NCBI GenBank assembly: GCA_021014945.1
Contig: MU266403.1
Coordinates: 49,361-113,360, forward strand
Source: Leucogyrophana mollusca
Lineage: Eukaryota > Basidiomycota > Agaricomycetes > Boletales
Direction: 5' to 3'
Length of the DNA: 64,000 bases
The notes beneath the pieces are model-generated. The model was not told the origin of the DNA. It was given only the letters and a program-made list of their open reading frames with translations, and ran no database searches. Positions 2,118-57,206 of this stretch are shown piece after piece. Numbering within the stretch: position 1 is the stretch's first letter; every line of letters starts with the position of its first letter. The position numbers were made by a program, and so were the translations under genes.

Positions 2118-5100
2118 TCACTGTGGCTGCGACGATTGCCCACGATTGCCCGAACGAACAGAAAAGCGGCGCGTGAGAGCTCGTTTCTGTTTTTGAGCTA
2201 TGCTGAGCTGCCTATGCATGGCCGCACGATCTTGCGGAGACCCCACGCTTCGACGGATCAAGTCTTGGAATTTGACGACGAGTTGCGTCCACCATCGAAC
2301 CAGAACAGTATACGCAGAGGTCTCGGATAGTGGCTTTCCTTCGTCCACCATCTCTTTCTGCAGTTGAATGGGTTGACGATCTGCAGTGTGAAATTTATCA
2401 ATGATTTCCCAAGCCGACTGGAACGTCGAGGAGAAGCGAGTCACGCGAGAGCCATGATCCATGAAGGGCTTCCAGAATTGCGTCCGGAGCTGGTCCTCCC
2501 GTCGGTTTCCTAATTCTATGGGAACTTCATCCCACATCGTCGTGGTCAAAATGACGTTCTGTAGTGCGCCCACGCCGCACAGCTCTTCAAACATCGACAG
2601 ATTCCGGATCGGCGCTCCGCGCATTCTACTCTCTGAGATACTGTGAAAGTATAGGATACCAGTCAATGTGATGTGTTTTTTATAACTAGAGGGACGGAAG
2701 TCCGATCAGCGCTCCCAGCTCCCCTAGGGGCAAATGCATACTTACGTGGCTTCCAGCCACACGGCAATCTCTTTGAGGACATCACAGTCCGTCCTCTGGG
2801 TGTCGTCAAAGCCTGGTGTATCGACGAGTACGATATTGCGCCCGCTTCCGTCGGGGTGAAGGCAGCTGAATGCGCGAACATGCTGCGTACACGATTCTAG
2901 AGTGTGACCGACGCGAGCCGATGATCGCCTTCTCGCTGCATTTATAAACTTGTATTTTCGTCAGAATCCGCACCTGCTGTTAATAAATGTACTTGCCGAG
3001 CTCTTGCCAGTGCCAGTTGGGCCCATTACGCTAGCGAGATTCGATGTCAGGCCCATCGGAACTACCCAGTGAGGTGTGTACTCACGCAATAATCATGTCC
3101 TCATCGGTGAATGTCACCGCTTCATCGTCATAAACTGATGCTCTAACGGACTCGTTAATACTGGGAGTGGCCGGGGATGATTGTGTGATTCCTGGCGCAA
3201 AAACGTGCGATCTTTGCGCACTTAAAATCCCAGAATACTGAGGGATATTGGGTTGCTGACGAGGGGTGAAATATGAGCCGGATGGACCTCCTGTGCTATT
3301 TTCTGAAGGTACAGGCGTGGCCAAGGGCGCAGTGGCGAGTGTAGAAAGGAGACGGGAAGTGAAATCTTTTTGTTGATCCTTGACAGGTTCCTCGCGACTG
3401 GGAATATCTGGATGAGACCGCAACTGCTGGACAACTTCATTTGCCTTGGGGCGGCAGTCAGGATCCGCATCCCAGCATTTCTCGATCAAACTCCAGATCA
3501 CGTCATCTAGCTCAGGGCTATCAGGGCGGGGAGGCCGTTGGTGTTGCGCGACAGCCATGATGGCGTGAGGAAGAGCAAACTCGGAGAAGCGCGGTCGCCC
3601 AGCATAAATCTAGGACTAGGTGAGCCCCAAGAAGGGACGAGAAAGACTGCTTAACGGAACCTCGTAACACACGCAGCCAAACGAATACATATCTGTGGCA
3701 CAACTTTTTCGTTTCCGCTCCGTTCCTTCGTACTGTAACAGCTCGGGAGCTAGCCAAAGGAGGGACCCAGCTCCAGATGAACTGGAAGCAGGCGAAAGTT
3801 GCACATTCAAATCTTCTGCGAGCGTGCACAGACCAAAATCGGCAACGCAAGCCCTCGATTCTGAAGTGATGAGGATATTTGCCTAAATAATACGTCATTA
3901 AATGGGGCGGGGCATAGTCTGCAATTACTAACGCCTTTCAGGTCGCCATGAATCACGGGGGGGTCGAAGGAGTGCAGATAGTCAAGACCTTGGGCGACAT
4001 CTAGCATCTGTCGACAACTGTGATTATTATGCTACGCCGAGATCCCGCTTGAGCCACGTACCAGTGACAGCCGATTGGCTTGCGCATTTTTCCCGAGGTA
4101 TTGTGAAATGTTCCCGTTAGTCATCCACGGTGATACGAGGCACACTCGAGACGGAGTCTCAGGCAAGCGATATACACCGCAGAACGGTAAGACGTGTGGA
4201 TTGGAGAGTTGTCCCCACAGAACCGCTTCTTTCGAGAACGCCTAGGCGCTAGCGTCACCCAAACCGAATAAACACTAACTCGAGATACGCACCTTGATTA
4301 GACTTTCCACAGCGGGGGTATCGAATACTCGCAAAATCTTGATAGCAACAGCGTGACCCGCTAAGGTCCCTTTACAAATGTCTCCAAAGCTCCCACCGCA
4401 CACCGGATTGAGGCCACGGGTATCAAGATTCCGGAGAACTAGGCACTCCGGATACAGTCCAGAATTTCGGGATAGCTTGATTATCGCCCTCACTAGAGCC
4501 GGACGAATGCCACCAAGCGGCAAGATATCGAGGAGCTATATGAAATGCATTAGTTAAACGGTCTATAACAACCAGAGCGCAATCATAGGCGACAGATACC
4601 TCTTGAAAGAGATCAAGTAAGGACTGGGCATCTAGTTCTTTCTTGTCTTGTAGCAGCTCCCGCCGATGAGGATCTTTGATAATAATCCATATTCGAGCGG
4701 AAATACACAGTGCATCGAGTTTCAGAATATTTTTGAGTAGCGTTTCAGCTCCGGTAGCACCATCTTGCGGTAGTGAATGCTCTGAGTCGTGAGAGCCACG
4801 ATGCTTATGAGGTTTGCTTAGCAAAAATAGCAATGCCTGGTTTCTTTGAGTCCAACGTACCACTTTGCATCGACTAAGGTATATTCGTAAAGTATCGTTG
4901 ATGGAACGATACTTTACGAGCTGGGCGATATCGTCAGCACTGGTGGTCCACTCGCGGTATTTCGTTTTCAAGGCGTTCTCCAGTCTGAACAATCAACACG
5001 TTTACTAATGTGCCACGACGGTGAACGAACCGAGACCGACGGGCAACACACCTGGGTCTAGAAACCTTCACAAGCTGTAGAATGTACGCGTAGAATCGCT

Positions 5101-5336
5101 GCAGGCACGCTCTATTAGAGATTCGTCAACTTCCTAGCGAGTTTTTGGCTAACTGGGTATATCAGGGCGATCTCAGCACCATCATGTTCTCTTCCAAATC
5201 CATGAATCGACGCGATCTTCAGTATCTGTAAGCTGTTGGCACGAAGCCAATCACCTGGAGCATCGACCAAGGAAATGGAGGTTTCGAATTCCCCAAGTGC
5301 ATCACCAAATCGCGAGATCGAAGAATCGGTAGACAT
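2118..5336 (-). CDS. K1: TKL-like protein kinase fused to a P-loop GTPase
   Basis: Multi-exon gene of roughly 880 residues, start chosen at MSTDSSISRFGDALG, which aligns with the starts of K2 and K3. Order: an unrecognised N-terminal helical region (exons within 5336-4600); a kinase with glycine loop VCGGSFGDICKG, lysine VAIKIL, catalytic loop HGDLKG|ANILI, VADFGLC and WLAPELL; then the G domain. One uninterrupted exon runs from the kinase C-lobe (ELDDVIWSLIEKCWD) through a Ser/Pro/Thr-rich linker to DEDMIIA, and the next exon supplies VMGPTGTGKSS, so the fusion is directly visible. G3 is VDTPGFDD and the G4 position reads TTTMWDEV. The intron after the P-loop uses a GC donor (GCAAGT). One splice site after the first exon (near 5120-5150) has no clear GT, so that junction is uncertain. 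Confidence 0.8.
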
Positions 5337-28205: not shown

Positions 28206-29931
28206 ATGAGTATGTCCGGTAGCAAAACGAAGGGCAAAAACGGGACTGGGAGGGAGGAGCCGTCCGCGTTAGCCGATGAGCCCTTGCAAGATTCCCGAGA
28301 AAGCGATATCGTTGTTCTGTGAGTTTTCTTTGCTGTTTCGTGTTTGACGAGTCAATTCCCTAACTGTTTAGCTAGCGTTATGGGGACGACAGGAGTCGGC
28401 AAAAGCACCGTACGGCGCTGATCAGTTCATGCGGTCCTTTGCCAGCTCATTTGCCTGTAGTTCATCAACGCCGCCGTCGGAAGCCCCAATGCAACGACCA
28501 TTGGTCATGAATTGAGATCGTGCACCTCCAAGGTTCAACATGTTGTAATTCCGGACCCCGCCAAGGTTGAAAACCGCATAGTCTTCGTTGATACACTTGG
28601 CTTCAATCATACCTACGTGGATGATTCGGAGATAATCAAGCGCATCACTGCTTGGTTGAAGCGTTCGTGAGTACAGCTGTGTCTCCTACGACTTATTGTA
28701 TATATTGACAGTGGATGTGGTAGGTACGGCGATCACCGGAAACCGAATGGGATCTTGTATCTCTATGATGTATCCCAGTCTCGCGACGTCAAGTGGAGGA
28801 CTACTATTCCCTTAATTCGTAATCTTTGTGGCGAGGGTACGATGAGCAATGTTGTGGTCGCAACGACCAAGTGGGACACAGTAAGGGAAGATGTGGGTTT
28901 GATACACGAACAACAGGTAGCTAAACTGTGGAATTATACCGGATCAAGGATGGCTCGGTTCTCGGGCACACCCAAATCTGCTTGGGACATAGTCACCCTC
29001 GCCACCAAGACGTGCCCTGTTGATACAATGATTCTGTGCGGTTTGTCCCCTATACTCCCACATTATTTTGGCCTGACCAATATTTCAGCATGCTGAGCCA
29101 AACTGGAGCGGGAAAAAGCTCTGTGAGGTGGTCTTTGTTGCTAATCGCGCACTGATGCTGATGTACTTCGTAGTTCATTAACACTGCTGCTGGGAGCGAT
29201 CTAGCGTCGGTCAGCGATGCTATGCAGTCTTGCACGACAGATATCCAACCTATCTATGTGCCTCACCCGCGTGACCCCAATCGTCGTATCGTGTTCGTTG
29301 ATACTCCAGGTTTTAACGATGCCTCGATGGGTGATGCAGAAATACTGCGAAGGATTGTCGAGTGGCTGCAGCGTCCGTGAGTGTCCTGTGTTGCACCACT
29401 TTCCACCTGCACTCATCCTATCGCAGGGTCAATGAGAAGATCGGACTAAGAGGGATCATCTATCTACTCGAAATCACTGAAAGTCGCATTGACCCTAGGA
29501 ACAACCTCATGTCGCCTAGCAAACTTTCTCGTCCTGGCACGGCGCATAACGTTGTTCTGGCTACTACGAAATGGGATGACATTCAAGAAGATGAAGGACA
29601 GAGACGTCAGCAACAACGGTCCGAGAGATGGCAGGAGATGCTTGATCAAGGATCATATCTGGTTCGGTTCACCAACACCCGACAATCCGCGTGGGAGGTC
29701 GTAGACCTTCTCCTCCAGAACCACGGGGCGGATGACCCTCCGATTCAGCGGGAGTTACCCCATGCCCTGACGGAGCTCGTTCAACAAGAGCTGACCCATG
29801 CCATGGCTCAACTTCCCGAACGGACCCAGACGGGCTTCATTGCGAGACTGTTGTCAGTTCTTTTTGGGACAGGTCGCAAGGTGATTTCTCTCCGACCATC
29901 ATGCTGACTTTACTCATGTTGCCATTAGTGA
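28206..29931 (+). CDS. D1: double P-loop GTPase (A-like plus B-like G domain)
   Basis: Exons 28206-28318, 28376-28409, 28461-28666, 28724-29035, 29089-29122, 29174-29376, 29427-29880, plus a last exon holding only the stop codon (29929-29931); about 450 residues. Domain 1 has VMGTTGVGKST, VDTLGFNHTYVDD (proline of DTPG replaced by leucine) and VVATTKWDTV. It has no coiled coil: VDTMIL is spliced straight to MLSQTGAGKSS, so the end of domain 1 becomes the first strand of domain 2. Domain 2 has a normal VDTPGFND, VLATTKWDDI and ends in the class B tail GFIARLLSVLFGTGRK. Both P-loops sit on 34-nt micro-exons. Confidence 0.85.
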
Positions 29932-30459: not shown

Positions 30460-33400
30460 ATGTCTGATTTTCTGATTTCACGATTTGGCGACGAGCTGGG
30501 GCAATTCAAACCCGCCATTTCTCTAGGTGATGAACCTTGTGACTGGCTTCGTGCCAATGCCCAGCAGATCTCGGAGGTCGTTTTGACGCTCGAAAGCCGC
30601 GAACAGCTTGGGATAGATGTGATAGACTTGGTGTTCCCGGTCAGCAAAGTGCCTTGTTACATCGAATTGTTGTTAACACAACTCTGCAGCGATTCTTTGT
30701 CTATACGATAGCCCACCTGAGCTTATTCAACCCCAAGTATGTTGCTCGCTCGCTCTCAACCCATTTTACTGAATTGGCGAATCGCTAGGCTCGTGGATCC
30801 CCTGAAAGCAATAGCCACTAAGTGGGCTAGCGATGCAGACGACATTGCCCACCTTGTGAACCATCGTACCATCAACGATACTCTATGGGACCATCTCGAT
30901 CGCTGCAGAGAGGTATGTCCGAAGTATGAAAATGCGCCGAACCTGCTTTTGATCTCCACCCACAGGCACACTTTCACGATACGGGCACTGAGATCCGAGT
31001 CGAAAACATAATAAAGCTTGACACACTATGCATCACCGCTCGGATTTTAGTCATCCTCCGTGATCATCAACGCCGGAAAGTACTAATGGACCAACAAGCC
31101 TCCAATGCACAATCATTGCTTGACCTTTTCCAAGCGGTATGCCTTTCTGCGCTGTCGCGGGTTACGAATCCTCGACTGACGATGTTACCGTTGCATGGTA
31201 GCTTCTTGATCGTCCGAATCTCGGTAGCGCTCGTCCGTCTATAGTGAGAGCGGTCGTGGACTTATCCAGAAAAACTGGACTTTATCCTGAGTGCTTGATT
31301 CTCCGGGGCGTGAAGATTCGAGGAAAGGAACCAGTGTGCGGGGGAAGTTTCGGAGACATTTACAAGGGTAAGGTCGCTGGTCAAGCCATCGCTATCAAGG
31401 TTATGCGGGTCTACAATGCGACTGCCATCGAAGGGGCCATAAAGGTCAGTTATTTTATGTGGACATGGCGTCCCTTGACCTTTGGATCTTTAGGTCTTCT
31501 CTAGAGAGGCGGTACTGTGGCGCCAGCTTTCCAACCCCAACGTCCTGCCATTTTATGGCGTGTACCGCTCGCCAGAGACAGCCTCTAAACTATGTCTCGT
31601 ATCGCCGTGGATGGAAAACGGAAACATTACACAATATCTGGAAAAGACGCCCACAGCTGATCGCCGGCCTCTAGTATGTGATGCCAGTCCAATCACGACG
31701 ATCACGTTTCTCACAAGCCAAAGGTGATGGATATAGCTCGTGGTCTAGATTATTTACACTCTTTCGAACCTCCAGTTGTCCACGGTGATCTGAGAGGCGT
31801 AAGTGATCCTTGGAGCTGCTCTTGTCCAGTCGTTGACGCTGAACGCGTCCCAGGCCAATGTCCTTATCACACCGTCTTTGCGGGCTTGCGTCGCCGATTT
31901 TGGTTTGACTACCCTTGAACATGATGTTAATGGGCCATTTACACCCTCAACAAGCTCCTATGGGGTTGGAGCGCTTTTTTGGACTGCTCCCGAATTACTT
32001 AGCTACCGCGAGGGCGAGCGTCAGCGCAAGAGTTTAGCTAGCGACATGTACTCGTTTGGTTGTGTGTGCTACGAGGTGACTTCCGTTGGTTTCTATTCAC
32101 TATTCAGTGATCGCTCATCTTCGACCAGATCTACACTGGATGTCCAAAATTTGTCAAGCTCCCGCTTCCGAGAGCCATCATTGCTGTTACCGAAGGCCGC
32201 CAAGTACCCCGGCCGACTCACTCTGAGCTCGATGACACAACATGGGACCTCATTGAACAATGCTGGGCTATCGAACCTTTATCTCGTCCAGTCTCAAGCG
32301 AGGTTGTCCATAAGCTTCGATCTTATTCAACTAACCCGCATCGCAAAGAGTCTGTCTGCGACTGGAACGAAGACATCATATTGGATCTTTACTCCAAGTT
32401 AACACACGAGCCGTCTGACACGATTGCATCCTCTGGGAGCGATGCGAGGGGTTCGTCGTTACTATTTCCCTCATTTGGCGTCGAGCTTGACGGTTATTAT
32501 CAGATGGTTCTCAAGATTACCTGAGTTCGTTTTCGGGACACTCTCAGTTTGCTGCCTCCACCATGACATGGACAACCTCATCAACCACTAGCCTCATAGA
32601 GTCTCCGATCTCGATCAACGAAGATGGAACATGGCCAATCACCGACCAGGATATAATTGTTGCGTTAGTGTTCCCGTTTCCTGTTCGTGTTTCGATGTCA
32701 AATGTTTCGATTTGATAGGGTGATGGGGCCGACAGGAACAGGCAAAAGCTCGGTGAGGGCTGCTCTCCTAACGACGAAGCGCGAATCTCTAAACCATGAT
32801 ATAGTTCATCAATGCAGCAACACAGAAAACATCCTCTATCATCGGCCATAACTTAGAGTCGTGCACCCAAGAGGTCCGCGCGTTCAACTGCCCCCACCCC
32901 CGCCAGCGAGGGCGCAATGTCGTGTTCGTCGATACCCCTGGCTTTGACGATACCCATAGGACAGACTATGATATCCTCAAGGACATTGCAAAATGGCTAG
33001 AAACGACGTGAGCTCCACTCCAAGAAAGTGTTTGCGTTTATATAACGGCGAATTTTTAGGTACAGACAACGTATAACCCTCTCCGGAATTCTGCTCTTCC
33101 ATTCCATCTCGGAAAGCAGAATGCGTGGAGCACCCCTAAGGAACTTGGACATGTTTCAAGAGTTGTGCGGCGTGAATGCGCTTCAGAATGTCGTTTTGAC
33201 TACGACGATGTGGGACGAAGTTCCCGTTGAAGTCGGAGCTCAGCGCGAGGACCAGCTCCGGAACGAGTTCTGGGGACCAATGATATCGCATGGGTGCCGT
33301 ATAGCTCGTTTCGAATCCACTTGGGAGTCGGCTTGGGATATCATCGGCAAGTTCGACATCGCGACTCGAAAACCAGTCCAACTGCAGGTCCAGTTGGTCG

Positions 33401-33681
33401 ACAAGGGATTAAAGCTCCCCCAAACGTCAGCATATGGTGTCCTGACCCGCTGGTGGGAGGCTGCCATCGCCAAGCTGAAGGAACTTCTACAGAAACGCGG
33501 AGGGTCCGCGAAAAGTCGCGCAGCCCTTAAGCAGCGACTCAAAGAGGCCGAGGTACAGAAACAGGCCCTTGATGACCGCCACTCGGTATCCAATCGCTCC
33601 CTCGCGAGCACTATCACTGCAGTATCGTCTAGGAAGTCTCGACCCTGGTTTGGAAATAAAGACATTTCAAAGACCTCATAA
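30460..33681 (+). CDS. K2: TKL-like protein kinase fused to a P-loop GTPase
   Basis: Most readable fusion gene, about 880 residues. The N-terminal region (MSDFLISRFGDELGQF ... DADDIAHLVNHRTINDTLW ... NAQSLLDLFQA) is predicted helical and matches K1 and K3 only. The kinase has VCGGSFGDIYKG, IAIKVM, VVHGDLRG|ANVLI, VADFGLTTL and WTAPELL, and a C-lobe ending SRPVSSEVVHKL. A 53-nt intron (donor GTTCGT near 32452) removes the only stop-containing frame before the linker and restores PITDQDIIVA, which is spliced to the 34-nt exon 32719-32752 (VMGPTGTGKSS). The G domain continues with GHNLESCTQEV, VDTPGFDDTHRTD and TTTMWDEVPVEV, then a basic, helical C-terminus. All canonical kinase residues and the Walker A lysine are present. 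Confidence 0.85.
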
Positions 33682-34243: not shown

Positions 34244-35302
34244 TTAACGGAAACCAAAGAAGGCCAGAATCCGTCTGCCAATAGGTATCTTAAGTGCTTG
34301 AATCTGACCAAGGAGTGTGCGAATTTGATCCTCGGTGTCCTTCAACCTCCCTTGTACATCATCACCGCCCTCGTTGCCGCTCCGCAGCTCCATGATTGTT
34401 TTCTTGTGTGCCGCTACCAGGTCCTTCAACGAGCTGCGTAGGGCGTTGCCCGCTGCTGTCTCGGGGAGGATTTTTCCGAGGTCAACCAGTTCGTTTTGGA
34501 TTTGGAGGCATTCGAGAAGCTGTTTATCGGTAATGGTATTGATGATCTTCCAGGCAGACTGAGACGTGCCGTCGAACTTGGCCATTTTGGAACCCTGCTG
34601 AATCATGTCCTTCCAAAATTCCCCCAACTGTTGCTCGCGTCTCGCTGCCACATCAGGCTTAACATTGGCCCATTTCGTAGTCCCAAGAATGACATTCTGC
34701 GCGGCTTTCACGCCACACAATTTGTCGAACATGTCGAAGTTCTTGCGGGAGGTCCCTACCATACGAGCTTGGGTTATCTCATGCAGGTAAATGATCCCTG
34801 CAAGCTTTACTTTGTCGCTATACCTGTCATGCGCATGAACAGCTGTCGATCGTGATTGATGTAAATGTGCTTACGAACGCGCCAGCCAAACGGCAATCCG
34901 CCTCAGGATCTCCGCGTCGTCCTCGTACGTATCATCGAAGCCAGGGGTATCAACGAAGACAATGCGACGTGACCGATCGTAAGGATAAGGAACGATGGCG
35001 TGTGTTAACGCCGCTGTGCAAGACTCCAGGCTGTGGCCAACCTTGGTCAAATCAGCGCCAGCAGCAGTATTGATGAACTTTCGCTAGGATTGAGATTGCG
35101 AAGATCGTTGACTGATGAGGTTCTTACAGTGCTCTTGCCGACTCCAGTCGGCCCCATAACGCTAATGAAGTAAATGAATACGATCTCTTAGCCGTGAAGA
35201 TGCAAAATCTTACGGAATAACAATATCAGTGGGTCGAGCATCTTGCAGGACTGTATCACCAGGTCTCTGTTCTGACCCTTTCCAAATCTTTGAGATGGGC
35301 AT
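34244..35302 (-). CDS. A2: P-loop GTPase, class A, full length
   Basis: Four exons, first 35302-35214, start MPISKIWKGSEQRPGDTV, the family's basic start. Encodes VMGPTGVGKST on the 34-nt exon, then FINTAAGADLTKVGHSLESC, VDTPGFDDTYEDD (G3), LHEITQARMVGTSRKNF and ILGTTKWANV (G4 position). After the conserved LVDLGKILPETAAGNALR comes a charged coiled coil (KDTEDQIRTLLGQIQAL) and the tail PIGRRILAFFGFR. About 300 residues. All visible nucleotide-binding motifs are intact. Probably cytosolic with a membrane-touching or self-associating tail; its partner and trigger are unknown. Confidence 0.87.
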
Positions 35303-53998: not shown

Positions 53999-56900
53999 CT
54001 AGGTATCTTCAGAGCGCGAAGAGCCTCTTCTAGCTACCGTTTGACGTCGAGTCCGATATGCCATCGCAACTTTCGTGACAAGACCTTCAAACGGACGGGC
54101 TCGCCGGCCACCATCAAAGGCCTTTTGTTGGCGTAAAGCGACGTTCAGCTCCCTGCGCAGGGCGGCCTTCTCTCCCGGAGACCATAAGGGCTTGTCGAGC
54201 AGCTCCCGAACTTTCTCCACAAACTGCTTCCACCACCGAACCATCACAGAGTATGCCGACGTCTCAGAGAACTTCTTCCCCTCATCAACAACCTCCGTTT
54301 GTAACTTGACGGCCCGGCGGTTGTTGATGTCGAACTGGTTGATGATCTCCCAGGCAGAGTCAGAAGATGATTCGAAACGCGCCGTCCTGCATCCGTGCGA
54401 AATCATCGGGTGCCAGAACTGTGTCTTCAGCTGCTCTTCGTGCTCTAACCCGACTTCGATGGAAACTTCGTCCCACATCGTCGTAGTCAGAACAACATTT
54501 TGAAGTGCGTCCTTGCCACACAGTTCTTCGAATACAGCTAAATTCTTCACCGGCGTCCCACGCATTCTGGACTCGGATATGCGGTGAAAGAGGAGGATTC
54601 CCGTCAGGGTGATCCCCTGCCTGTAGCTGGTGAAGCGAGATGGGATTGTGCAGTGCTGCTCGAGGAAAATACTCACGTTTGCTCGAGCCATTTCGAGATG
54701 TCTCTGAGGATGTCATAGTCGGTCCTCTTGCTATCATCAAAGCCAGGAGTGTCCACGAATACGATGTTGCGATTGCTGCCATCGGGATGAGGACACGTAA
54801 AGGCTACGACTTTCTGTGTACATGACTCCAAGTCATGGCCAACTATTGCGCAGGCTTGTCGTATCGCCGCATTGATGAACTAGATTATCGGTTAGTGTGC
54901 TCTTCAACGAAATTAGAATCGGACCCACAGAACTTTTGCCCGTCCCGGTTGGGCCCATTATGCTATTAAATAATGATGTTCGGGGCGATGTAATCAGCCG
55001 GGTGGAGGACTACTCACGCAATGACAATGTCCTGGTCAGTTAGTGGTCGCATTTCATAACCACCAGTCGAAGTCATTATAGATATATCGGTGCTGGAAGA
55101 GGATGCGGCAGAGATAGGCGACCAAGGGCTGGACGAGGTCGAGCAACCTTCGGATCCTCCGGTATCTTCAGAATCATATTCCTAAGTTTGACAACAACAG
55201 ATAATTTACAATACAAACCATTCGCGCTTTCCGCAAATGAAACACCATCACAGGGATTGATCGCCAGTGCGGTACGAAGACGAGCCCTGATTTCCTCATC
55301 CCAATCACAGACAGGGACATCTGGCTCCACAGGAAACCGCCAGGAATCCAAGCTCTGGACAACATCATAGGCCCTAGGGCGAGCCGGTGGGTCTTCATGA
55401 CAGCACCAGTTAATTAGGTCCCAGGTCAAGTCATCGAGTTCTGTGATCAGAGGCCGCGGAGGGCGATGGTGTTCGATATGTGCCATGAGGAGTTGTGGAT
55501 AGGACATCCCACAAAACTGTGGCCGGCCAACAAACATCTGTCTTGAAGGTGAGAATTGGCTCGAGCAAGACAGGTTACGCTAAGAAATCTAACCTCGTAG
55601 AAGGTACAACCCAGTGAGTACATATCACTTGCCAAACTCTTCGGCAGTGGCTTTCCTTCTTGGTCATTTTCCTGCAATACTAACTCGGGGGCCATGTAGA
55701 CCATGGAACCAATCGAGTAGGCGCTTTTGGTGGGTGTGAATCGCACCAAAGCATCCTGGACGAGTGTGCACAAGCCGAAGTCCGCAACACAAGCTCTAAA
55801 CGATGAAGTAATGAGAACATTTGCCTGGGAGATAACCGAGTATGAGACTGCAGCTCGAGTCCTCGATTGCAATCACTCACTCCTTTCAGATCGCCATGAA
55901 CGATTGGAGGTTCGAAGGAGTGGAGATAGTGGATGCCTCGAGCTACATCTAGTAGCTGCACGACCCTCAGTTACCAGGATCACTAGGATAGTCCCCAGCA
56001 CCACGCACCAGAGGCTTTCGATCTGCTTGGGGATTTTTCTCAAGGTATTGGAGGACGTTCCCGTTATCCATCCATGGTGAAACAAGGCCGACGTAAAGAG
56101 GTTTTTCGGGACAATGGTGAACGCCGAGGAATGGTAAGACGTGCGGGTTGGAGAGCTGTCTCCATAGAACTGCTTCTTTGCAATATGTCTGTTGTGACTT
56201 CAAGTCAGAAGAAGTGCTGAACGTGCACATATATCGAACCTTGATATCATCAGGGGCACGTATGGATTTTATAGCAACTGCATGAGCGTCTACCTCACCC
56301 TTCCAGATGTCTCCGAAGGCCCCACCGGCCACCGGGTCTGGTCCATGGATATGGATGCCTTGTAATACTAGGCACTGGGGGTGAAGACCTGACTTTTTTG
56401 ACAATTCGACAACAGCCCTCACGATTGGTGGACGGATCCGGTTATCTAAACCAGGAGAATCAAGGAGCTAGAGAAGAAGCGTCAATAAAGAGGTCGGGAG
56501 TTGAAGCCGAAGGTGGTACTCCTTGAAAAAGATCAAGCAAAGACTGCGCGCTCGATCCTTCCTGATTCACCAGCTTCTTGCGGCACGTGGGATCGTGAAG
56601 AATGAGTAGGATACGGGCCGCGATATATAACTTGTCCAGTTCCAACAGTTTTTCAACGCGAAGCCTGGCGTCGCTGTCATTGGGGTGTTTCTAGACTTCT
56701 GTCAGTATGAATCCGTAAAGTTTGAAGCGGACCTTACACATTTGCACTTATTCAGCGCATCCCATAGCAAGTCGTTGATGATGTTATGGTGCGCGAGGTG
56801 GTCAATCTCGTCGCTGTTGGCCTCCAGCTTGAGGATAGTCTTTCGAGTCCTCGGGCTAATATGGCGACAATGTTACTTTCGCTGCCACGGAAGCGACGAC

Positions 56901-57206
56901 TCGGCGCCAGCGTATCGCTGGCAGCTCACCTTTTCTTTGCGCACAGCTTCGCATGTGCCAAAGTGTAAACAAAAAAGCGCTATGTAACCCCTCAGCAGCG
57001 GTCGGCGTCAGAAATGGTACCTGACTGACTGGGTAGATCGAGTCAATTTGCCGAAGTTTGAGGTCCAGTGAGCGTGAGGCCTCAAGGACATTGTTTATGT
57101 TTGCGTCCAGCCAATCTTTGGGCGAGCCGACAAGGGAAACGGCGGATTGGAAATTCCCAAGCGAATCACCAAGGCGCGACAAGGTAGAATCCATCGACTC
57201 GGGCAT
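53999..57206 (-). CDS. K3: TKL-like protein kinase fused to a P-loop GTPase
   Basis: Third fusion, about 880 residues, start MPESMDSTLSRLGDSLG. The N-terminal helical region (NSDEIDHLAHHNIINDLLWD, SAQSLLDLFQG) aligns with K1 and K2. Kinase: VAGGAFGDIWKG, VAIKSIRA, IVHGDLKG|ANVLI, VADFGLCTL, YMAPELV. The linker needs a 62-nt intron with donor GTTTCA to bring EYDSEDTGGSEGCSTSSS and PLTDQDIVIA into frame. It is spliced to IMGPTGTGKSS. The G domain has VGHDLESCTQKV, VDTPGFDDSKRTD and TTTMWDEVSIEV; the C-terminus is basic (RPFEGLVTKVAMAYRTRR). The activation-loop region is longer than in K1 and K2 (LQENDQEGKPLPKS insertion). Kinase and Walker A residues are intact. Confidence 0.8.

Follow-up and report, generated by a model that had tools for sequence, protein, structure and literature searches.

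The final 64 kb of contig C77 in the genome assembly of the brown-rot basidiomycete Leucogyrophana mollusca (32.3 Mb in 545 contigs), hereafter the window, contains three genes, K1, K2 and K3, that each encode a helical N-terminal region, a tyrosine kinase-like (TKL) kinase, a linker, a GTPase (G) domain and a helical tail on one predicted chain. A preliminary description of this DNA had proposed three separate genes, each giving a single polypeptide with the order helical region, kinase and GTPase, and our exon models (868, 860 and 853 residues) bear out both the gene count and the order. The three genes and the parts of K2 are as follows.

2118..5336, minus strand: K1 gene, 12 exons, 868 amino acids (aa), architecture as in K2
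3086..3609, minus strand: exon 9 of K1, an unbroken exon reaching from the kinase C-lobe across the linker to G-domain strand β1 (exon model, public protein)
30460..33681, plus strand: K2 gene, coding for 860 aa in 13 exons; from the N-terminus, a helical region, TKL kinase, linker, G domain and helical tail
30460..31297, plus strand: K2 N-terminal all-helical region, aa 1–206 (exons 1–4 and the start of exon 5)
31298..32332, plus strand: K2 TKL kinase domain, aa ~207–482, motifs intact (exon model, Pfam, structure and sequence comparison)
32333..32637, plus strand: K2 kinase–GTPase linker, mostly low-confidence or disordered in the model, with a phase-1 intron at 32451–32503
32638..33438, plus strand: K2 G domain, introns at 32664–32718, 32753–32804 and 33008–33059; G1 GPTGTGKSS, G3 DTPGF, G4-like TMWD
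33439..33681, plus strand: K2 C-terminal helices and low-confidence tail (AlphaFold2 model)
53999..57206, minus strand: K3 gene, 13 exons, 853 aa, architecture as in K2; public protein P0013 shorter at the N-terminus

The K2 exon model is free of stops, has GT-AG introns and matches the public L. mollusca protein P0001 letter for letter, as does the K1 model, in which one intron is GC-AG, for P0015. The public K3 protein, P0013, has 608 residues: its start falls within an intron of our model, which it matches from residue 249 onward, such that about 250 N-terminal residues are missing from it, and an alternative splice site in the linker leaves it 11 residues fewer. As judged from these exon models, K1, K2 and K3 are intact paralogues with one shared architecture.

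Whether kinase and GTPase belong to one gene is decided at the junction between them. Exon 9 of K1 (3609-3086, 524 bp) encodes aa 427–601, from the kinase C-lobe up to ‘DEDMIIA’, the first strand of the G domain, and is thus the single exon that the preliminary description had seen running from the C-lobe to the G-domain border. In contrast to K1, the linkers of K2 and K3 are split by an extra phase-1 intron, at the same place and in the same phase in both; this intron is missing from the paralogues at two other loci of the genome, C90 and C116. In K1, C90 and C116 the junction is crossed by one open frame, and the crossing stretch is unchanged in the public proteins P0015, P0002 and P0031. 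Two genes would be conceivable if K2 were taken alone, because reading through its linker intron meets a stop just past 32521, and ~40 bp further on there is an ATG. An open frame from the kinase C-lobe to the first G-domain strand in K1 and two paralogues nevertheless argues that these are not neighbouring genes, and conservation of order and intron positions in three genes excludes chance; the two-gene reading was therefore rejected.

The Pfam models PK_Tyr_Ser-Thr (E values 3e-38 in K2 and 2.3e-31 in K3) and MMR_HSR1 (4.2e-9 and 4.3e-9) score above cut-off, the kinase match of K2 spanning aa 217–477 and the G-domain match starting at aa 574; for K1, both are listed in the precomputed record of the identical protein P0015. 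AIG1 scores 23.4 bits in K2 and 29.4 in K3 against a cut-off of 27, and so is below it in K2 and above it in K3. All three proteins keep the kinase Lys, the αC Glu, the HGD Asp, the catalytic Asn, the DFG Asp, the APE Glu, G1 and G3, as checked by aligned positions in K1 and K2 and by motif search in K3, in agreement with the intact catalytic residues and Walker A motif reported earlier. Among the solved sequences closest to the kinase are CTR1, TNNI3K and RAF, and its closest folds are CTR1, BRAF, MLKL (a pseudokinase, third in the list) and TNNI3K. The fold and catalytic motifs are thus those of a kinase whose closest relatives are TKL, a group assignment set by solved structures, with some tyrosine kinases also near. 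Foldseek with the full K2 model gave kinases alone among the best 50 matches listed. That model (AlphaFold2, 17 sequences, mean predicted local distance difference test score (pLDDT) 73, predicted template modelling score 0.50) consists of helices over aa 2–199, the kinase, the linker, the G domain and two C-terminal helices; pLDDT in the linker is under 50 at 482–492 and 504–565.

The type of GTPase was a further result beyond the preliminary description, as was the presence of the fusion at C90 and C116. By sequence, the solved proteins closest to the K2 G domain are GBP, IRG and GIMAP7. By fold, the G domain of a relative, P0034 (model mean pLDDT 65), is closest to Toc34, GIMAP and then septins, with some translation GTPases between them, and its top 50 folds include Toc34, GIMAP7, GIMAP2, GIMAP5 and septins. 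Going by this relative, the G domain of K1–K3 is of the septin/AIG1/Toc34 type, which at low sequence identity to its closest folds differs from them further in being fused behind a kinase. The N-terminal region of K2 matched no Pfam family above cut-off. A death effector domain was considered for it and rejected, as the matches (FADD, E 0.25; Pfam DED, E 0.15) are at chance level, and so was an MLKL-like (BaMLKL/HeLo) bundle, for which profile comparison gave a probability of 0.2 per cent and the PDB no match to MLKL. For DEAD_assoc, two of nine N-terminal sequences gave a match, the best at E 0.0003 and 21.1 bits, below the cut-off of 23.5, and a search with this region returned four matches.

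To judge how widely the fusion occurs, we turned to public proteins. A search scored on the G domain and restricted to long proteins gave 89, of which 16 have kinase and GTPase by their Pfam fields, P0070 and P0089 being added on reading. The genera represented are Leucogyrophana, Hygrophoropsis, Suillus, Tricholoma, Laccaria, Flammula, Coprinopsis, Boletus and Macrolepiota. The three-part protein with a K1-type N-terminal region also occurs in Suillus, Tricholoma (partly), Flammula and Coprinopsis, sequences from which the N-terminal profile was in part built; the Hygrophoropsis and Laccaria fusion models have a short N-terminus. In Pholiota P0008, which lay outside the profile-building set, a K1-type N-terminal region (E 2.7e-31) is followed by the G domain with no kinase between. 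The fusion is spread over several Agaricomycete genera and not local, a point that the preliminary description had not seen. That description knew of no fungal system with this order, and our searches of open-licence literature likewise found no description of a fungal TKL–GTPase fusion, with one older Laccaria paper outside that coverage that could mention it; this 2009 paper is reportedly on kinases and RAS GTPases. The architecture itself, by contrast, is already in public databases, the names given there being TKL-ccin or kinase-like. For instance, P0040, the fusion of Suillus paluster, is TKL-ccin by its source's name and falls within a clade of 43 kinase rows (described below) with a Shimodaira–Hasegawa-like approximate likelihood ratio of 94 in a quick tree.

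A mixture-model tree of 49 hand-chosen rows out of 142 placed 16 fused G domains, together with Pholiota P0008, Hygrophoropsis P0028 and a fragment on C438, in one clade (support 99/97.9). This clade holds 19 of the 49 rows, from Leucogyrophana, Hygrophoropsis, Suillus, Tricholoma, Laccaria, Flammula, Coprinopsis and Pholiota, and spans Boletales and Agaricales; the orders were looked up for L. mollusca (Boletales) and Flammula, and we take those of the remaining genera to be one or the other. K1, the K2 group and K3 each pair with different Hygrophoropsis proteins and therefore diverged before the Hygrophoropsis split. Most simply, the fused G domains would have had one early origin. The alternative that they are recent local captures was rejected, since 29 of the 30 unfused copies of the genome fall in another clade (34 rows, quick tree); the thirtieth, the C438 fragment, groups with K2 in the quick tree. 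That quick tree took 129 of the 142 rows, leaving out any protein with three or four G domains; class B rows (see below) were also dropped, as were 4 of 46 chains with fewer than 130 of the 213 columns. Membership of the fusion clade was also excluded for Boletus coccyginus P0070 (approximately unbiased test, p 2.8e-89), whose kinase lies outside as well; this protein is a separate fusion. P0066, on a long branch, is outside the fused clade in the quick tree and inside it in the mixture-model tree.

Selection was compared between copies by the ratio of non-synonymous to synonymous substitution rates (dN/dS). Between K2 and C90 it is 0.18 for the kinase, 0.15 for the G domain, 0.34 for the tail and 0.99 for the alignable part of the linker, so that on this pair of sequences kinase and G domain are under purifying selection. 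The N-terminal region of C90 aligns poorly with that of K2, where 110 of the 206 codons stay unaligned and the alignment contains two in-frame stops; the public model of C90 (L007) starts late. Between K2 and C116 the values are 0.41 for the N-terminal region, 0.23 for the kinase, 0.25 for the linker, 0.47 for the G domain and 1.18 for the tail, and the C116 copy may be decaying.

The kinase lineage was then surveyed in 41 pieces of the genome (the window and L001–L040), hand-picked from listed matches, so that all counts are lower bounds and not genome totals. After chains under 100 columns were dropped, at least 43 kinase chains passed the coverage limit (L025 and L029 each contributing one identical kinase row), and 30 of the 43 carry a K1-type N-terminal region. 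The HRD letters in this census, and the DFG letters of K1, were distorted by intron read-through, the correct residues being taken from exon models and alignment. A G domain of the K1–K3 type (class A) follows five of the 30 (K1, K2, K3, C90 and C116), and an unrelated one (class B) follows three: L001 (C339), L002 (C196) and L003 (C367). In a quick kinase tree (58 rows, several long branches, columns round one intron masked), fused proteins make up the deep branches of the 43-row clade. Nested within the K1 lineage are the class B pair C339/C196 together with 22 chains that have no G domain, a set slightly different from the 22 kinases without a downstream G domain given below; C367, accompanied by one relative that is unfused, and L018, itself unfused, are placed elsewhere. 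In view of these positions, a few losses of the GTPase and at least two replacements fit best. Exon modelling joined class B to the kinase in C196, where a 62-nt GT-AG intron unites the frames, and offered several candidate introns in C339; for C367, no single intron joins kinase and class B GTPase, and the GTPase of L001 may have a start of its own. Among the proteins listed by the public search there was no class B fusion from L. mollusca, separate short GTPases being outside the length limits of that search. As read from L001–L003, the switch behind one kinase may have been exchanged more than once.

In Suillus bovinus P0165, two kinase domains are followed by a class B GTPase, an apparently independent fusion; the kinases of this protein and of P0089 fall outside the K-lineage clade in the quick tree. 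Separately, some unfused K-lineage kinases are preceded, on the same strand, by class A G-domain copies that are likewise unfused (L004 3207-3926 and L005 3453-4104, C116).

The window itself holds a G-domain cluster at 2310-62812, with 20 chains, one of which has two copies, giving at least 21 copies including K1–K3; 18 unfused copies share the window with the three fusions. More copies lie on the rest of the contig (C77:28000-47800; L015, L016). The unfused genes flanking K2 are as follows.

28362..29703, plus strand: two unfused G-domain copies upstream of K2, belonging to the window's 18 unfused copies
34451..35077, minus strand: unfused G-domain gene downstream of K2, on the opposite strand to it

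The same G-domain family also has other partners. In 12 of the 89 proteins (P0034, P0035, P0043, P0047, P0048, P0051, P0052, P0053, P0056, P0057, P0058 and P0063) it is joined, in other mushrooms, to a C-terminal MLKL-like bundle of four helices. A profile built from ten of the twelve bundles found human MLKL bundles at the top (E 6e-5; 1.8e-6 with a full-length alignment of all twelve), and the remaining two match it: P0035, 90% identical to P0034 and hence a near copy, at E 2.4e-56, and P0052 at 2.3e-21. Pfam MLKL_N matches just 4 of the 10, with a best E of 0.0048. The P0034 model has an additional helix at the start and a further, short one that separates helices 3 and 4, both of which are described for BaMLKL domains in the available text of PMC9815663. 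In Colletotrichum salicis P0071, PNP_UDP stands ahead of a class A G domain; its source name is ‘kinesin light chain’, and a Pfam scan gave no repeat match. In Boletus edulis P0161, one chain unites a class B G domain with TPR and HET, a layout like that of an NLR except that NACHT is absent. MLKL-like, PNP_UDP and HET domains are partner kinds found on fungal NLRs, according to the portion of the survey available (PMC12258605).

Several known systems resemble K1–K3 in part. The Roco proteins, whose kinases belong to the TKL group (LRRK2, Dictyostelium GbpC), likewise have kinase and GTPase on one chain; unlike K1–K3, where the kinase comes first and the GTPase is of another family, they place the GTPase before the kinase and carry Roc and COR, LRR and WD40 domains. 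Roc and COR models were absent among the K2 and K3 matches at E values up to 1, and with this and the reversed domain order, membership of the Roco family was rejected. Dimerisation of the Roco GTPase has been proposed as a control of the kinase (available text of PMC6320773 and PMC9138534). MLKL and BaMLKL share the TKL-type kinase fold, and an MLKL-like bundle joins the same G family in other proteins, but the N-terminal region of K1–K3 does not match that bundle; we know of no GTPase in MLKL. DAPK1, in which the kinase comes first, differs from K1–K3 in having a CaMK-group kinase, ankyrin repeats, Roc-COR and a death domain. It too has kinase and GTPase on one chain and is described as a mediator of programmed cell death in the accessible part of PMC6320773. 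The TKL-ccin kinases of mushrooms belong to the same kinase clade as K1–K3, and most copies examined in L. mollusca are without a GTPase; a TKL expansion in Laccaria has been published (PMC2838846), and the parts of the TKL-ccin sources at hand do not mention a GTPase domain. Fungal NLRs (NACHT/NB-ARC) are like this family in combining a nucleotide module with interchangeable partner domains and expansion. K2 and K3 gave no NACHT, NB-ARC or repeat model above cut-off (nSTAND1 was sub-threshold at E 0.074 and 0.023, respectively), and an orthogroup with MMR_HSR1/AIG1/Septin matches was met among the candidates of an NLR survey and excluded from it, as far as the available text tells (PMC12258605).

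Taken together, the best reading of these comparisons is that K1–K3 belong to an old Agaricomycete family of single-chain kinase–GTPase signalling proteins. How such a chain might work is suggested by its structural relatives: septins, GIMAP and Toc34 dimerise via their nucleotide face, and dimerisation often activates TKL kinases. By analogy, the G domain would bind nucleotide and dimerise or oligomerise through it, drawing a pair of kinase domains together across the flexible linker; these could then activate in trans and pass the signal to partners held by the N-terminal region, a likely context being a self/non-self, stress or cell-death response. We give about even chances to a kinase gated in this way by nucleotide-dependent G-domain dimerisation, which would resemble LRRK2 and DAPK1 in working and not in family; the gating by nucleotide state put forward in the preliminary description is plausible from what is known of the family. 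Immune-like or cell-death signalling is probably the context. Tentatively, the family could even be a GTPase-based mushroom counterpart of NLR signalling, with a septin/AIG1 G domain in the role of NACHT, replaceable behind the same kinase, and interchangeable outputs that would comprise the TKL kinase of K1–K3, the MLKL-like bundle and PNP_UDP, and HET with the second GTPase class.

A number of observations weigh against this set of proposals. The G4-like (NKxD-like) motif is TMWD, with Met replacing Lys, and is variable in relatives, so that guanine specificity is putative. For the N-terminal region of K2, the PDB yields no match below E 0.25. In 22 of the 30 kinases, the 1.5 kb downstream on the same strand contain neither a class A nor a class B G domain (for six of them, L033, L034, L005, L017, L004 and L018, under 1.5 kb of downstream sequence was covered), so the kinase can do without a GTPase. 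The fused copy C116 (P0031) is without the DFG Asp and shows a looser constraint on G domain and tail (0.47 and 1.18). Finally, the immune context is one of association, because the MLKL, PNP_UDP and HET partners sit in other proteins.

Of the competing explanations, the one that survives best is that these proteins serve ordinary developmental or nutrient signalling, with immunity and cell death playing no part. A fruiting-body gene list (PMC4082614) and a Laccaria transcription-activator screen (PMC5604158) include TKL-ccin kinases, as given in the available portions of these sources; on the other hand, the expansion in copies, a GTPase that was lost and apparently also replaced, and the MLKL-like, PNP_UDP and HET partners of relatives resemble fungal self/non-self families, and we regard this explanation as unlikely but serious. 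Somewhat unlikely as well, and a shade more so, is a G domain that acts as a scaffold or as a membrane or filament anchor, with an independently regulated kinase whose catalysis is not gated by nucleotide. Several Toc34, GIMAP and septin proteins, the closest folds of P0034, serve as anchors or polymers, the long low-confidence linker speaks against tight contact, and same-lineage kinases without a G domain are common. Such a role is at odds with the G1 Lys kept in 16 of 16 aligned fused rows, the G3 Gly kept in 15 of 16 and the purifying selection on the G domain between K2 and C90, from which nucleotide binding seems to matter.

Control might also run in reverse, the kinase being a sensor that phosphorylates its own G domain or neighbouring G proteins of the cluster, the GTPase the output and dead kinases decoys or adaptors. 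This would suit the 18 unfused G-domain copies around K1–K3, the fused layout that C116 keeps without its DFG Asp, the kinases without a DFG motif in C196 (L002) and C367 (L003), and Pholiota P0008, where the kinase is missing between N-terminal region and G domain; with the DFG Asp present in all 15 other aligned fused rows, we consider it improbable. That gene prediction merged two adjacent genes, as the stop and ATG in K2 alone might suggest, is scarcely credible against the open frames across the junction, the agreement in place and phase of the K2 and K3 linker introns, and public models that are fused in several genera and whose G domains form one clade.

Proteins with a kinase and a GTPase on one chain are rare, and the studied cases known to us are the Roco proteins. 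K1–K3 represent an unrelated kinase–GTPase combination, present in Boletales and Agaricales, and offer a testable system for a possible gating of a kinase by a GTPase. G domains of this type are also used in animal immunity. In other proteins their family is joined to a cell-death-type bundle, which points to a possible use of GTPases, besides NACHT proteins, in immune-like signalling of mushrooms.

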